Below are positions 41,951-61,873 of a stretch of DNA of 64,000 nt, one piece after another. The translations under genes were made by a program, and so were the position numbers. The stretch is from Micromonospora craterilacus. GTDB lineage: Bacteria; Actinomycetota; Actinomycetes; Mycobacteriales; Micromonosporaceae. Location of the stretch: contig NZ_POTY01000002.1 in assembly GCF_003236315.1 (NCBI RefSeq), positions 1 through 64,000 of the forward strand. The letters run 5' to 3'. Within the stretch, counting starts at the first letter, position 1, and the number at the start of each line of letters is the position of its first letter. The notes beneath the pieces are model-generated. The model made no database searches, was not told the origin of the DNA, and saw only the letters and a list, made by a program, of their open reading frames with translations.

Positions 41951-41978
41951 TTGACCCGGGCTATGTGAGCGCTAACAC
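41951..41978 (+). promoter_or_regulatory. Promoter/operator of the chvE-mmsAB operon
   Basis: TTGACC (41951-41956) is followed after 16 bp by TAACAC (41973-41978). The LacI-type box TGTGAGCGCTAACA (41964-41977), fitting TGTNANCGNTNACA, covers spacer and -10. The same layout occurs before araB at 48033. Confidence 0.7.
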
Positions 41979-46065: not shown

Positions 46066-46087
46066 CGGTGCGGTGCCGGAGGTCGGA

Positions 46088-47302
46088 GTGGTCCAGGAGG
46101 AGATCCGCCGGCGCAACGCCGGTGCTCTGCTGCGGTACGTACACCTGCTCGGCGCGGTGTCCCGCGCCGAGCTGGCCGAGCGGATGGGACTGAACCGCAG
46201 CACCATCATGGCGCTGACCACCGAGTTGACCCGGGTGGGTCTGGTCCACGAGGAGCTGCCCACCGACACCGGGCGGGCCGGGCGGCCCTCGCTGCTGGTC
46301 CGGCCCGCGGCCGACCGGTTCTACGTGCTGGCCTTCGACGTCGCCGTGGACCGGCTGGTCGCCGCTCGGGTGGGGCTCGGCGGCTCCATCCTGGAGCGTC
46401 GGACGGCGGTGCGCCCGCGCGCCGGGCCCGATCTGCACGAGGTGGTCGAGGTCCTCGCCCGCTTCGGCCGCCAACTGCACCGCGCGGCACCGCCGGACGC
46501 GATCTGCGTGGGCGTGGGCGCCTCGTACTGCGGCATGATCCGGCCCGGGGACGGGATGGTGCGCTTCGGGCCCGACCTGGGCTGGGTGGACCAGGCGTTC
46601 GGGGCCGAACTCGGCCGCCGCCTCGGCCTCGGCCTGCCGGTGACGGTGGGCAACGAGGCGCATCTCGGCGCGCAGGCCGAGCAGCAGCGCGGTGCGGGCG
46701 TCGGCTTCCAGAACCTCATCTACCTGCATGGTGACGTGGGTGTCGGCGGTGGGATCATCGTCGGGGGCCGGTTGCTGGGCGGTGACGGCGGCTACGGCTG
46801 CGAGCTGGGGCACATGGTGGTGAACCCGCACGACGGGCGCCCCTGCGGCTGCGGCTCGTACGGCTGCCTGGAGGCGGAGGTCGGCGAGCGGGCCCTGCTC
46901 GACGTCGCCGGCCGACCCGCCGAACTGTTCGGCCGGGAGGCCATCCGGTCGGTGACGGACGACGCCGACCGCGGCGACCCCGCGGCCCGGGAGGCGCTGC
47001 GCCAGATCGGCGACTGGCTCGGCATCGGAGTGGCGAACCTGATCAACCTGTTCAACCCGGGCATGGTGGTCTTCGGCGGGATGCTGTGCGACCTGTACCC
47101 GGGTGCGGCGGCTCAGGTGCGCAGCCGGATCGCCCGCAACGTGCTGCCGGTCGCCCGGGAAAACGTACGGCTGCGCACCGCGGCGCTCGGTGACGACGCC
47201 ACCCTGGTGGGCGCCGCCGAACTCGGCTTCGCCCCGTTGCTCGCCGACCCGCTGGGCCGGCCCGCCGACACGGGGCGTCGCGCCGCCGGCAGCTGCCGTT
47301 GA
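46088..47302 (+). CDS. ROK-family transcriptional regulator
   Basis: This is a regulator of 404 residues. The N-terminal winged helix is RNAGALLRYVHLLGAVSRAELAERMGLNRSTIMALTTEL (NagC/XylR type). A ROK domain follows with sugar-kinase fold: VTVGNEAHLGAQAE, YLHGDVGVGGGIIVGG, and the zinc motif GRPCGCGSYGCLEAE. A conserved catalytic Asp is not evident at the phosphate site, as expected for a sensor. GTG 46088 has GGAGG 6 bases upstream. It is cotranscribed with the ChvE-type importer and probably senses an imported or derived sugar. Confidence 0.85.
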   Translation: MVQEEIRRRNAGALLRYVHLLGAVSRAELAERMGLNRSTIMALTTELTRVGLVHEELPTDTGRAGRPSLLVRPAADRFYVLAFDVAVDRLVAARVGLGGSILERRTAVRPRAGPDLHEVVEVLARFGRQLHRAAPPDAICVGVGASYCGMIRPGDGMVRFGPDLGWVDQAFGAELGRRLGLGLPVTVGNEAHLGAQAEQQRGAGVGFQNLIYLHGDVGVGGGIIVGGRLLGGDGGYGCELGHMVVNPHDGRPCGCGSYGCLEAEVGERALLDVAGRPAELFGREAIRSVTDDADRGDPAAREALRQIGDWLGIGVANLINLFNPGMVVFGGMLCDLYPGAAAQVRSRIARNVLPVARENVRLRTAALGDDATLVGAAELGFAPLLADPLGRPADTGRRAAGSCR

Positions 47303-48089
47303 CGGTCGTCGGTGCCGACGGTGTCGGCCATCCGGCTGCCAAACTGCATCGATATATGGCATGTTATCGCTGACATAAGCAGCCAGGCGATCGAGGCGGA
47401 TTCCATCGAATGAAATCGAGGTGCCCGGGTTGTTGTGGTGGGCCGGCGCCGGTCCCTGAACATGCATGTCAACGGCGAGGGAGGACCGCGATCGCGCCCC
47501 CGGCGCTGGTGCGTCCGGGTCTGCCTTCGGCTGTCGCTGATCTCGATTGCCGATCGATGGTGTTAACGCTCATTCAGCCAATTTTCCGGTGCCGAGGTCG
47601 GTGCCTGCGCTCGCGGTGGGTTGCCGGGCGCCGGCCGTCGCGCCGGTATCGAGCGGGCTGCCGGAGCGGCGATCCGGCCCTGCCGGCAACGGCGGTGGCG
47701 GTGTTTCGCTCCTTCGTGGGGTGCTGCGCGCAGCCGCCCGGTCGAGGCATGCGCGAGCCGACCGGCCGGAGCGTCGCCCGGTCGGCGGTGGCCCCGGCCG
47801 GCCGGGCCAGAGTCCCGATCGCTGGCCGGAGCCCCTGTTTCGTTGTCCGGCAAGCGTTTCGGCGGCACCGCACGGCAACGTGACGGTGTGCCTGGACGGT
47901 GGGCGGCGGCTACGATGCCGTCCGCGCTGAACTGGGCCGCAGGGGGCGTGGATCTGGGCCTGCCACCGGTTCCGCCGAGGGGTGACAGACCCGGCGGTGC
48001 GCTCCGTTACGGAGCTGTTGCCGGCAGGTGTCTTGACGGCATGGGATGTGAGCGTTAACACTGAGGTTCGTCATCGGCGGAGGTTGAAC
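47303..48089. other. 787-bp gene-free region with several LacI-type boxes
   Basis: No frame here has a ribosome-binding site and a believable product. TGTTATCGCTGACA (47362-47375) fits TGTNANCGNTNACA exactly and lies next to an AT-rich GATATATGG. TGTTAACGCTCATT (47561-47574) is a weaker match. A 15-bp palindrome, GCTCCGTTACGGAGC, is at 48001-48015. The araB promoter and box follow at 48033-48061. The region may hold a distant operator for looping, a leader or small RNA, or a worn-out gene. Confidence 0.5.
48033..48061 (+). promoter_or_regulatory. Promoter/operator of the araB operon
   Basis: TTGACG (48033-48038), 17 bp, TAACAC (48056-48061), with TGTGAGCGTTAACA (48047-48060) across spacer and -10. 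The arrangement matches the chvE promoter at 41951. The start of araB is 29 bp downstream. Confidence 0.7.
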
Positions 48090-57468: not shown

Positions 57469-57576
57469 CCCCGGGCGGGCACGGGCCGGCGTGGCGCCGC
57501 GAGAGAGGATCGTGTTCCAAGCCGCTCCGGTCAGCGTCGACGGGTCGCGGCGACCCACGGCATGCGGGAGTGTGAG

Positions 57577-58593
57577 ATGGCCGTACGCGATCCTGCGATG
57601 ACCGATGTGGCTCGCCTCGCTGGTGTTTCCCACCAGACGGTTTCGCGAGTGCTCAACGGCCACCCGAACGTGCGTGAACAGACCCGGCTGCGGGTGCAGG
57701 CGGCGATCGCCGAACTCGGCTACCGCCCGAACCGGGCGGCCCGTGCGCTGGTCACCGGCCGTTCGCAGGTGATCGGCGTGGTCGCGCAGAACACCACCCT
57801 CTACGGCCCGGCGTCGCTGCTCGCCGCCCTGGAGCAGACGGCCGCCGAGGCGGGGTTCGCGGTCAGCGTGGGCAGCGTGCGCGACCTCGATCACCTGTCG
57901 ATCTCGGCGGTGGTCGAGCGGCATCTGGCCCACCGGGTCGCCGGCATCGTGGTGATCGCGCCGGTGGAGTCGGCCGGGGAGGCGCTGGAGCGCCTGCCGA
58001 AGGACGTGCCGCTGGTCACCGTCGACGGGGATCCCCGCCGGCCGATGCCGCTGGTGACGGTCGACCAGGCCGCCGGTGCCCGGGCCGCCACCGAGCACCT
58101 GCTCGCCGCCGGTCACCGTACGGTCTGGCACGTGTCCGGGCCGTCCGACTGGTTCGACAGCGCGGGACGCATCGAGGGCTGGCGGTCGGCGCTGCTCTCG
58201 GCGGGTGCCGAGATCCCGCCGCTGGTGCCGGCGGACTGGTCCGCGGCGGCCGGGTACCGGTGCGGGCAGATGCTGGCCCGGATGCCCGACGTCACTGCGG
58301 TCTTCACCGCCAACGACCATCTCGCCCTCGGTGTGCTGCGCGCCCTGCACGAGCACGGCCGCCGGGTGCCGGACGACATCAGCGTGGTCGGCTTCGACGA
58401 CGTGCCCGAGGCGGCGTACTTCATCCCGCCGCTGACCACCGTGCGACCGGACTTCGACGCGGTGGCCCGGGCCAGCCTGGAGATGCTGCTGGCCCAGATC
58501 GAGTCGGTCAGCGGTGGGGCGTTGCGCGAGACCATCGCGCCGGCGCTGGTCCCGCGGCAGAGCGTCGCCGCGCCGCCCCGTCGCCGAGCGTGA
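57577..58593 (+). CDS. LacI-family regulator of the arabinose locus (AraR-like)
   Basis: This is a repressor of 338 residues. The helix-turn-helix MTDVARLAGVSHQTVSRVLNG is followed by hinge YRPNRAARALVTGRS. The effector domain has VIGVVAQNTTLYGPASLLAAL and ends VVGFDDVPEAAYFIPPLTTVRPDF. I chose ATG 57577 (GGGAG 7 bases upstream) over ATG 57562. It sits between araA and the GH127 gene. Boxes of the LacI pattern before chvE, araB and the GH127 gene make it the best candidate for their regulator. Confidence 0.88.
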   Translation: MAVRDPAMTDVARLAGVSHQTVSRVLNGHPNVREQTRLRVQAAIAELGYRPNRAARALVTGRSQVIGVVAQNTTLYGPASLLAALEQTAAEAGFAVSVGSVRDLDHLSISAVVERHLAHRVAGIVVIAPVESAGEALERLPKDVPLVTVDGDPRRPMPLVTVDQAAGARAATEHLLAAGHRTVWHVSGPSDWFDSAGRIEGWRSALLSAGAEIPPLVPADWSAAAGYRCGQMLARMPDVTAVFTANDHLALGVLRALHEHGRRVPDDISVVGFDDVPEAAYFIPPLTTVRPDFDAVARASLEMLLAQIESVSGGALRETIAPALVPRQSVAAPPRRRA

Positions 58594-58718
58594 TGCCGGC
58601 AGCAGGCGAGGTGGCGGCGGGCGCGTCGCCTCAACGGGAGTGGTCCGTCACGACGAGTTGCTCGTCGCAGGTGACCGGCACCACGGGGCGCTGATCCGGG
58701 CACGGCGCGGCTAGCTTG

Positions 58719-58763
58719 TTATCGATAACATCCTCAAGGGGTGTCGATGGAATCAGTAGCGGA
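58719..58763 (+). promoter_or_regulatory. Orphan LacI-type operator with a truncated gene start
   Basis: TGTTATCGATAACA (58719-58732) is a perfect 14-bp palindrome of the AraR-type pattern. A ribosome-binding-like AAGGGG and ATG 58747 follow, but the frame ends after MESVAD. No intact gene lies downstream in this direction; the convergent GH127 gene ends here. It looks like the promoter end of a lost gene or a looping partner of the site at 61656. Confidence 0.6.
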
Positions 58764-61511
58764 CTAGACGAACCGCCACAGGTGGTCACCGGTGCCGTTG
58801 TCGTCCCAGATCACGATCTGGGCGCCCTGGGCGGAGGAGGCGCCGGAGACGCCGAGCACCCGCCCGCCGTTGCCGCACTGGATGCGGAAGTAGCCGTCCG
58901 TGCCGTAGCGCAACCGCCAGCGCTGGTCGGCCGCGCCGGTGTCGGCCCACTGCAGCACGCGGGCGCCGTTGGCGGTACCGCCGCCCTCCACCCCCAGCAC
59001 CTTGCCGCTGTTGGCGTTGCGCAACCGCAGGTAGCCGTTGGCGTCCACGATCGCGGTCCAGAGGTGGTCGGCGGTGCCGGTATCCCCCCACTGGATCACC
59101 AGGCCGCCGTCGGCCGTGGACATGTTCTGTACGCCGAGCACCAGCCCGCTGGCCCGGTTCTGGATCCGCCGCGCGCCGTTGGGTACGAACCGCCACTGGT
59201 TGTCCGGCGTGCCGTTGTCCGGGTCCTGCACGGCCCGGGCGCCCTGGGCGGTGGAGCCGTTGAGGATGGCCAGCAGCTTGCCGGTGTGGCCGTTGCGGAT
59301 CTTGTGGGAACCGTCGCCGACATCGACGATCGCCCAACGGTGGTCGGCCGTGCCGGTGTCCGACCATTGCAGGATCGGGGTGTTGTCGGCGGTGGACATG
59401 TTCTGTACGCCGAGCACCTTGCCGCTGTTGGCGTTGCGGAACTTGACCGCCGTACCGTCGACGACGAGCTGCCAGTCGTGGTCCGGGGTGCCGTTGTCGG
59501 CCCACTGCAACGCCGGGGCGCCGTCGGCGGTGGACATGTTCTCGATCCCCAGCACGAGGTTGCTGGCGGCGTTGACCAGCCGGAACGTGGCACCGCCGGG
59601 GCCGCTCTGGCCGTTCGCGCTCCAGTAGACGGTGTAGTTGTGCCCGTGCGCGTCGTAGAACGGGATCAGGTTGACGGTGGCGCCGTTGGCGGTGGCGGTG
59701 AAGGTGAGGGCCGTGCTGCTGGTCCGGGTGACCGAGGCGGTGGCCAACGCGGGCAGCGCCGAGAGCGCCGTGTTGCCGTAGTTGCCGGAGAGCACCGCCG
59801 GGCCGTAGGTGAGCGCCACGACGTTCGGGTCGTCGTTCGCGGGCTGCACCAGCACCCGCATCGGCAGGCGTACGGAGACGGTGTCGCCGGAGGCCCAGGA
59901 GCGGGTGAGGGTGGCGTAGCTGCCGGGCGTGGTGGCGATGCTCTGCACTGCGCCGTTGACGCTGACGGTGGCGCCCTCCGTCCAGCCGGGGATGCGGATC
60001 CGCATCGTCCACGACCCGCCGACGCTGCCGCTGACGGTGAGGGTCGTGGTGTCGCCGGCCGGGTAGCTGGTGGTCTGGGTGACCGTGATCCCGCGTTGCG
60101 ACCAGTTCAGCACCGACGGCATGAACAGGTTCACCGTCAGGGTGGTGCCGTTGTGGAAGTAGATCGAGTCCATCAGCGTGGTGTTGCTCTCCAGCCCGGT
60201 GCCCTGGCAGCACCAGAAGGAGTTGTAGTCGGTGCTCCAGGTGCCGCCGCCCCACGCCGGCCCGACCCCGCGCCGGCCGCCCGGGTTCAGCGGCGTGAAG
60301 TAGGTGATGTGCCCGTGGTTGTCGGCCGGGTTCTGCGCGCCGACGAGGTGGTTGAGCAGCGCCCGCTCGTAGAAGTCGAAGTACGCGGTCCGGTTCGGGT
60401 CGAGCAGCCACAGCTCCCGGGTCAGCTTGAGCATGTTGTACGTGTTGCACGCCTCGCAGGTGTCGTTGCGCAGGTAGCCGGCGATGGCGTTGGGAGCGCG
60501 GAAGTGTTCGGCCTGGCTGTTGCCGCCGATCACGTAGCTGTGCGCGTTGACGGTCATGTTCCACGCGTTGCTGGCGATGTCCCGGTAGCGGGTGGTGCCG
60601 GTGGCCTTGAACTCCCGGGCCGCGCCGATCCACTTGGGCACCTGGGTGTTGGCGTGCAGTCCGTTGAGTTGGTCCTGGTTGGCGGCGAGGGGGTTGAACA
60701 CGGCGCCGTGGTCGAACCGCTGGGCCGAGGTCAGCCAGCGCGCGTCACCGGTCTGCTGGTACAGGTCGGCCAGGACGGCGTTCATGCCGCCGAACTCGGT
60801 GCCCAGCATGGCCTGCATCTGGGTCGGGGTGAGCCGGCCGGTACGCCAGTCGACCCAGCCGGCGAGCGCCAGCAGGACGTCGCGGGCCTGGGTGTTGCCG
60901 ATGTGCCGCCAGACGTCGAGCAGACCGGCCAGCGTTTTGTGGATGCAGTAGTACGGCACGTTGCCGTTGTTCAGCGTGCGCGCCTCCACGGCGGTGAAGT
61001 CGGCCTCGGGGAACCCGGAGAGGTATCCGGTGTTGAATCCGGCGGTGCCGTTGTTGGCCTGGCACCTGGCCAACTCGGCCACCATCTGGTTGGCCTTGTC
61101 CCGGCAGGTGGTGTCGCCGAGCACCGCCCACCCGTGGGCCCAGGCGGACAGGAAGTGCCCCTGCATGTGGGTACGGAAGGGGAACGTCGGAGCGTCCCAG
61201 CCGCCGGCCACCGCGGCGCCGCCGGTGGAGAGGCGGTGGTTGGCGCGGAAGTTGTAGAGCAGCCGGTTGACGTCGACGAAGCGCAGGTAGTTCAGGGTGC
61301 GGTTCTGGTTGTCCAGCCAGCGGCTGGCGGTCAGCCGGACCTGTCCGAGGTCGAACGGGAAGGCGGCGACGCCGATGTCGGGCCGGGCCGGGGGAAGCGC
61401 CGCGCGGGCGGCGCCGGCGGCGAGGGTGGGGCCGACAGCGGTGGCCACGGCCGCCGCGCCGGCGGCCTGGAGTACGTGTCGGCGGTTGAGGGACGGTTTG
61501 CCCAGGACCAT
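58764..61511 (-). CDS. Tat-exported GH127 beta-L-arabinofuranosidase with two ricin-type modules
   Basis: This is a protein of 915 residues. It has a twin-arginine signal (NRRHVLQAAGAAAVATAVG) and a GH127/DUF1680 (alpha/alpha)6 barrel from about 45 to 560. The zinc-cysteine active site of the family is visible as CEACNTYNMLKLTREL near 350 and SFWCCQGTGLESN near 432. A beta region follows, then two ricin-type trefoils (about 635-915) with six WxDxGTxDHxW-type repeats. GH127 enzymes release beta-L-arabinofuranose, for example from plant hydroxyproline-rich glycoproteins. ATG 61511 has AAAGG upstream. The operator at 61656 ties it to the arabinose regulon. Confidence 0.88.
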   Translation of the reverse strand: MVLGKPSLNRRHVLQAAGAAAVATAVGPTLAAGAARAALPPARPDIGVAAFPFDLGQVRLTASRWLDNQNRTLNYLRFVDVNRLLYNFRANHRLSTGGAAVAGGWDAPTFPFRTHMQGHFLSAWAHGWAVLGDTTCRDKANQMVAELARCQANNGTAGFNTGYLSGFPEADFTAVEARTLNNGNVPYYCIHKTLAGLLDVWRHIGNTQARDVLLALAGWVDWRTGRLTPTQMQAMLGTEFGGMNAVLADLYQQTGDARWLTSAQRFDHGAVFNPLAANQDQLNGLHANTQVPKWIGAAREFKATGTTRYRDIASNAWNMTVNAHSYVIGGNSQAEHFRAPNAIAGYLRNDTCEACNTYNMLKLTRELWLLDPNRTAYFDFYERALLNHLVGAQNPADNHGHITYFTPLNPGGRRGVGPAWGGGTWSTDYNSFWCCQGTGLESNTTLMDSIYFHNGTTLTVNLFMPSVLNWSQRGITVTQTTSYPAGDTTTLTVSGSVGGSWTMRIRIPGWTEGATVSVNGAVQSIATTPGSYATLTRSWASGDTVSVRLPMRVLVQPANDDPNVVALTYGPAVLSGNYGNTALSALPALATASVTRTSSTALTFTATANGATVNLIPFYDAHGHNYTVYWSANGQSGPGGATFRLVNAASNLVLGIENMSTADGAPALQWADNGTPDHDWQLVVDGTAVKFRNANSGKVLGVQNMSTADNTPILQWSDTGTADHRWAIVDVGDGSHKIRNGHTGKLLAILNGSTAQGARAVQDPDNGTPDNQWRFVPNGARRIQNRASGLVLGVQNMSTADGGLVIQWGDTGTADHLWTAIVDANGYLRLRNANSGKVLGVEGGGTANGARVLQWADTGAADQRWRLRYGTDGYFRIQCGNGGRVLGVSGASSAQGAQIVIWDDNGTGDHLWRFV

Positions 61512-61655: not shown

Positions 61656-61669
61656 TGTTATCGTTAACA
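61656..61669. promoter_or_regulatory. LacI-type operator before the GH127 gene
   Basis: TGTTATCGTTAACA fits TGTNANCGNTNACA and lies 145 bp upstream of the GH127 start, in the 362-bp gap shared with the divergent glycosyltransferase gene. The rest of that gap shows no gene and no other clear element. Confidence 0.65.
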
Positions 61670-61873
61670 ATCAGGGGCGCGCAAGCCCCGTCGGGAGGTC
61701 GGTGAGGGCGGGCCGACACCATAGCGGGGGCCGGGGGCGGTCACCCCGGATTGTTGCCGGTTCTCGACGGCAAATAGCGGTCTGGTGGCTTTTGCGGCGT
61801 ATCGCCTGTCGTGGTGAACTTTGCTCAATATGCTCCAGGGGCGACGGGAACCCACGGAGATGCGTGAGACACG

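Follow-up and report, generated by a model that had tools for sequence, protein, structure and literature searches.

Why would a perfect operator stand in a place where there is no gene for it to control? This question is raised by the window analyzed here, a 64,000-nucleotide stretch of DNA from Micromonospora craterilacus, in which an araB-like kinase gene, araD, an ABC sugar transporter, araA and a LacI-family regulator gene are followed by a convergent GH127 gene, with a perfect 14-bp palindrome, TGTTATCGATAACA, located between the two convergent genes (Table 1). The kinase gene is named by its likeness to L065 (Pfam FGGY), araD and araA produced NCBIfam matches above the cut-off, and the transporter between them is recognizable, with the best matches of its ATPase below the cut-off. 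The regulator, for which the NCBIfam search gave no model above its own cut-off, is called araR by context only. As argued below, the palindrome is very probably the surviving operator of a lost GH10-CBM2 xylanase gene.

Table 1. Coordinates of the features of the araR-GH127 region in the window
Feature	Position	Strand	Evidence
LacI-family regulator gene (araR) adjoining araA, presumed binder of the site	57562..58593	+	Pfam LacI, Peripla_BP_3
Rest of the araR-site interval, without convincing xylanase sequence	58594..58692	.	sequence comparison with relatives
Probable xylanase 5' leader remnant, ~20 bp	58693..58712	-	alignments and leader profile
Damaged -10-like TAGCCG, putative function	58708..58713	-	alignment with 12 xylanase-bearing genomes
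Perfect palindromic LacI-family operator TGTTATCGATAACA, apparent xylanase promoter relict	58717..58730	.	same 14 bases upstream of GH10 xylanase in 11 relatives
Retained -35-like TTGAGG of leftward promoter, putative function	58732..58737	-	promoter alignments
MESVAD frame, most likely fortuitous	58747..58767	+	absent in 15 other site-bearing genomes
GH127 beta-L-arabinofuranosidase gene with an open frame and ricin-type lectin domains, convergent to araR	58764..61511	-	Pfam PF07944, PF20736, PF14200
Operator TGTTATCGTTAACA upstream of the GH127 gene	61656..61669	.	box search

The palindrome is genuine and beyond chance. It is of even length with a central CG, as is characteristic of LacI-family operators, it occurs as a single exact copy in the whole 7.3-Mb draft genome (609 contigs), and it never appeared when the araR-GH127 interval was shuffled 200 times; furthermore, the window harbors five boxes with at most 3 mismatches to it, against a mean of 0.14 and never five in 100 shuffles. 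The initial annotation, which called it the most symmetric box in the window, was right about the box but placed its start at 58719, two bases to the right of the true one; the symmetry is indeed perfect, the comparison being with the five boxes within 3 mismatches only.

The regulator that recognizes this sequence is, by the pattern of co-occurrence, likely to be the product of the neighboring gene. Among the 160 genomes of the genus that we sampled, 119 contain a close match to araR, and exact TGTTATCGATAACA is present in 71 of these versus 1 of the 41 genomes without such a match (Fisher p 9e-12, kinship ignored). With a LacI-domain protein (Pfam) encoded nearby and co-occurring in this manner, we infer that it binds the site. 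Among the sites listed (75 of 149), 33 are located within 20 kb of araR and 42 lie more than 20 kb away or on other contigs, and therefore some could be targets of a different LacI protein. In G104, which has no close araR, the site precedes a GH62 gene. At the loci that we chose, the exact site precedes araB-like, permease, GH43, GH62, GH10 and GH127 genes, and ten site-adjoining proteins selected from 29 loci comprised a sugar permease, an FGGY kinase, GH10, GH43, two GH62 (one of them that of G104), GH127, an AbfB-domain protein, a protein with a weak esterase match and a GDSL protein. This set of neighbors appears to fit an arabinose/arabinoxylan regulon of the neighboring regulator. The window also contains other boxes. 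A frame identified by eye as a ROK-type regulator (46073-47302, plus strand) is located between two sets of sugar ABC transporter genes, with a box, TGTTATCGCTGACA, at 47362, just past it, and two related boxes, TGTGAGCGCTAACA (41964-41977) and TGTGAGCGTTAACA (48047-48060), precede a gene that by eye resembles one for a sugar-binding protein and the araB-like gene, respectively; the TGTGAGCG half may be the mark of a second operator class.

The nature of the lone site becomes apparent from the organization of the same locus in other members of the genus. We oriented on araR 72 loci from 69 of the 119 genomes, chosen by relatedness and rank (G140 and G068 were skipped). In 11 of the 69 genomes examined (G006, G003, G035, G030, G130, G120, G126, G112, G139, G150 and G157), exact TGTTATCGATAACA is present between araR and the GH127 side, upstream of a minus-strand xylanase gene that directly follows araR; the xylanase of G035, the one of the 11 that was scanned with Pfam, combines GH10 and CBM2 domains. 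The remaining loci include a variant (G076) in which the xylanase follows araR and the site lies 1.95 kb upstream of the matched stretch, four loci with the site and without an intact xylanase, 16 with GH127 near araR and neither of the two, and 40 others in which a convergent GH127 gene is missing from the 700 bp next to araR and the araR-proximal interval contains no exact copy of the site. Among these 40, the locus of G001 ends at a contig end, in G095 a GH127 gene 4 kb away has the exact site as its operator, and G011 has a 70%-identical xylanase at a distance of 5 kb. In addition, we compared 80 named araR loci with 1.5-kb flanks, several of which overlap the 69-genome sample and are not independent of it. 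The xylanase adjoins araR in M. zingiberis, M. radicis, M. andamanensis, M. sonchi, M. phaseoli, two 'Verrucosispora' records and strain C95; M. gifhornensis has the site and no xylanase beside araR, and M. lutea, M. humi and strains C31 and CP22 have GH127 beside araR and no site.

The position and the flanks of the window site match the intact xylanase promoter of the relatives. On the minus strand, the relatives show TTGAGC (or TTGAnn), an 18-bp spacer filled by the operator, and then TAGCTT; the -35-like element takes the forms TTGAGC, TTGAAC, TTGAGA or TTGATG, and the -10-like element conforms to TAnnTT in all 12 aligned xylanase-bearing genomes. In the window, TTGAGG is followed by 18 bp with the intact operator and then by TAGCCG. 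Thus, the flanks are conserved in the manner of a promoter, and the window retains the -35 and the spacer, not the -10. A LacI-family operator is expected in the promoter of a regulated gene, as the site is in the 11 relatives; in the window, the gene is absent and the -10 is broken. The claim of the initial annotation that nothing downstream of the box is intact accordingly applies to the plus strand and overlooks the relict elements on the other one. The promoter scanner, which accepted only elements with T as the final base of the -10 and 9 of 12 positions matching, found no consensus sigma-70 promoter between 58560 and 58900, and no terminator was detected in the same segment. As a separate observation, inspection by eye of the aligned xylanase promoters (L033, L032 and others) revealed a short inverted repeat, GGAGC-n9-GCTCC, around GGGCAC after the -10, in which one pair occurs both as C-G and as T-A and which has no counterpart in the window; it might form a hairpin in the 5' RNA or else be bound by a second protein.

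Beyond the promoter elements, what remains of the xylanase gene in the window is a probable ~20-bp piece of its leader. The segment matches the leader of G030, G126 and G130 at a distance of 273-276 bp from their site, with none of 100 shuffles as good in each case, and aligns at the same place in G006, G035, G112 and G150, where 5-10 of 100 shuffles reach the score; the other seven of the 14 relatives compared gave no leader match to it beyond chance. A leader profile has its best match in the window at exactly these positions, with an E-value of 0.0012 for the interval and of 0.37, that is, not significant, for the whole window. The piece was probably brought next to the promoter through a ~250-bp deletion. 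Of the xylanase coding sequence itself, we found no convincing trace in the window; near 58594-58625, a stretch resembling a signal peptide has a score at the edge of chance.

Several other genomes show further states of the locus. G067 has kept the promoter, and its gene is reduced to a CBM2 fragment (detected with tblastn) and a signal-peptide-like part (recognized by eye), with the catalytic domain missing. G155 and G088 retain the operator and parts of the leader, the xylanase gene being gone, and the -10 is broken in the former (TAGGGG) and intact in the latter. The window has kept the operator, the -35 and the leader piece, and lacks the xylanase, most of the leader and the right part of the -10. 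Finally, in 16 genomes GH127 follows araR without xylanase or site; in the more distant of these, both may never have been present. A scan of the 16 empty intervals for a decayed operator yielded best matches with 5-7 mismatches, of which 14 were reached by at least 43 of 200 shuffles, that of G134 by 24 and that of G024 by 6. The 5-mismatch match of G024 is possibly a decayed copy, and gradual decay of the operator in the 16 intervals was rejected as a general account, with most of the best matches at the chance level.

We built three trees for 29 genomes (from the rpoB region, with araR added and with GH127 added), in which several nodes are weak. Presence and absence of the gene are interleaved on these trees, which counts in favor of a lost gene. 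Under Fitch parsimony, the xylanase requires 9, 10 and 8 changes and the site 8 in each tree; under Dollo parsimony, the xylanase is lost 14, 14 and 13 times and the site 11 times in each tree. In G143, however, the closest genome by the rpoB region, the locus contains neither the xylanase nor the site, and therefore the loss is not placeable on a single short branch. The xylanase tree shares the groups {G030, G150, G126} and {G003, G120} with the rpoB tree and places G112, G139 and G035 differently, with the grouping of G130 and G035 contradicting a node of support 100. Given this conflict, the gene is likely to have been exchanged to some extent between species, and it may have been gained repeatedly, which would affect the count of events more than the view of where the site came from. 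We also considered the possibility that the xylanase had moved elsewhere in the draft genome. The five GH10 genes of this genome are 33-71% identical to four of the neighbors' xylanases, which are 80-87% identical among themselves; therefore, the gene has not simply moved, and the five, which look like paralogs, were rejected as its relocated copy.

These observations suggest the following evolutionary scenario. In the ancestor, araR would have been followed by a leftward GH10-CBM2 xylanase gene and then by GH127, and the xylanase promoter would have had the form TTGAGC, 18 bp, TAGCTT (minus strand), with the operator filling the spacer, such that an arabinose-linked LacI repressor bound to the operator would block RNA polymerase. 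Deletions in the window lineage would then have taken the xylanase and most of the leader, together with the right part of the -10; sequence that lay between the site and the stop of GH127 was probably deleted too. The repressor probably is still able to bind the lone operator, where there would be no transcription unit left to control. That the operator is perfect in four genomes without an intact xylanase may have a simple explanation in recent loss, the operator scan having favored near-perfect copies.

The initial annotation also supposed that a gene had been lost, and in outline this appears to be correct, but the gene that it had in mind was a rightward one starting with MESVAD and replaced by GH127, whereas the gene that seems to have been lost is the minus-strand xylanase to the left of the site. 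The elements that suggested the MESVAD gene all exist, namely, the ATG at 58747, 16 bp to the right of the site, the purine-rich AAGGGG (58736-58741) and a frame with its stop at 58765-58767, which overlaps the GH127 stop (58764-58766, minus strand) by two bases. However, a search for a gene starting with MESVAD in 15 other site-bearing genomes turned up no such frame (G088 has the same ATG with the frame VSMD), AAGGGG shares two bases with the relict -35, and the promoter-like elements face left, MESVAD being on the other strand. Moreover, GH127 adjoins the xylanase in 9 of the 11 relatives with xylanase and site (the exceptions are G139 and G157), and its coexistence with both speaks against a replacement. 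We regard such a rightward gene as extremely improbable. Conversely, the lone operator could be ancestral, and other lineages could have acquired the xylanase next to it by insertion or exchange, as might be suggested by the lack of xylanase in the nearest genome and by the partial discord of the xylanase and rpoB trees. Against this stand the -35, the spacer and the probable leader remnant of a xylanase promoter in the window, the truncated xylanase of G067 and the distant G157, which too has gene and site in place, and we consider this direction of change very unlikely.

A different kind of alternative assigns the site a present function, that of an auxiliary operator contributing to the repression of GH127, either by looping to the second box, which the initial annotation correctly reported at 61656, or by acting as a roadblock between the convergent genes. 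The perfection of the site in the four genomes without an intact xylanase, two of which have a broken -10, and the lack of a clear decayed copy in the 16 empty intervals, with G024 the best candidate, are compatible with this possibility. However, short-term retention of a perfect site needs no selection, and the scan sought near-perfect copies only. A box is present upstream of GH127 in all 21 genomes chosen, including the window (at 1.7-1.9 kb in G067, G003 and G120), and all eight close relatives without the intergenic site (G163, G170, G119, G098, G167, G147, G151 and G024) keep both GH127 and its TGTTATCGCTAACA operator; the pair is therefore not needed for the GH127 operator to persist. 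The other eight of the 16 site-less genomes, which are more distant, have GH127 boxes with 3 mismatches only, 0.2-1.7 kb upstream. The LacI-type repressor has a tetramerisation tail; the regulator of the window ends at residue 343 with a proline-arginine tail, and reading its sequence for a tetramerisation helix or tail of the LacI type revealed none, which seems to count against looping as well. An auxiliary role is, in our assessment, very unlikely, and the looping pair was rejected on its distribution, the two operators not being jointly conserved. It is similarly improbable that the operator came under selection of its own after the loss of the gene, as a repressor sink or a roadblock between araR and GH127; if it did, operators would outlive their genes as independent elements. 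As for the GH127 promoter itself, in the relatives TTGC starts 25-26 bp before the operator (20 of 20) and TA directly precedes it (19 of 20; -10-like TATGTT), and in the window (61656-61700) the promoter looks altered, with 15 bp from TTGC to the operator and AT before it; a new promoter, TTGCGC-N16-GATAAC, may have formed there.

The lone site is thus most likely an ordinary but neatly documented genetic fossil, an operator that records the loss of a gene. A single locus in a single genus presents intact, truncated, promoter-only, operator-only and empty states, and serves as a caution for genome scans that a perfect regulator site may control nothing. It also suggests a testable regulon in Micromonospora, namely, the arabinose-locus repressor and the arabinoxylan-degrading enzymes.

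No description of this regulator, site or locus was found in the literature searched, as far as the accessible portions of the papers extend. The closest parallels come from excerpts of three reports. In bifidobacteria, the LacI-family AraQ has sites at araBDA, and the BauR1 regulon includes a gene of the GH127 family (PMC5928203, in the part available); the present system resembles AraQ/BauR in the LacI-type regulator, the link to arabinose or arabino-oligosaccharides and GH127, and differs in the bacteria and regulators involved, in that the sites chosen here also precede GH10, GH43 and GH62 genes and in that the window site has lost its gene. The xylan-linked BxlR of Streptomyces, with the reported motif CGAANNTTTCG (PMC12772271, in the part available), is likewise a LacI-like regulator linked to GH10 xylanase promoters, but the GH10 promoter here carries TGTTATCGATAACA, not CGAANNTTTCG, and is linked to an arabinose-locus regulator. 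More generally, the site shares with LacI-family motifs the even palindrome and the central CG; however, according to the accessible sections of PMC4052901, more than 75% of the LacI-family sites are located 30-140 bp before a start codon, whereas the site in the window now precedes no gene.
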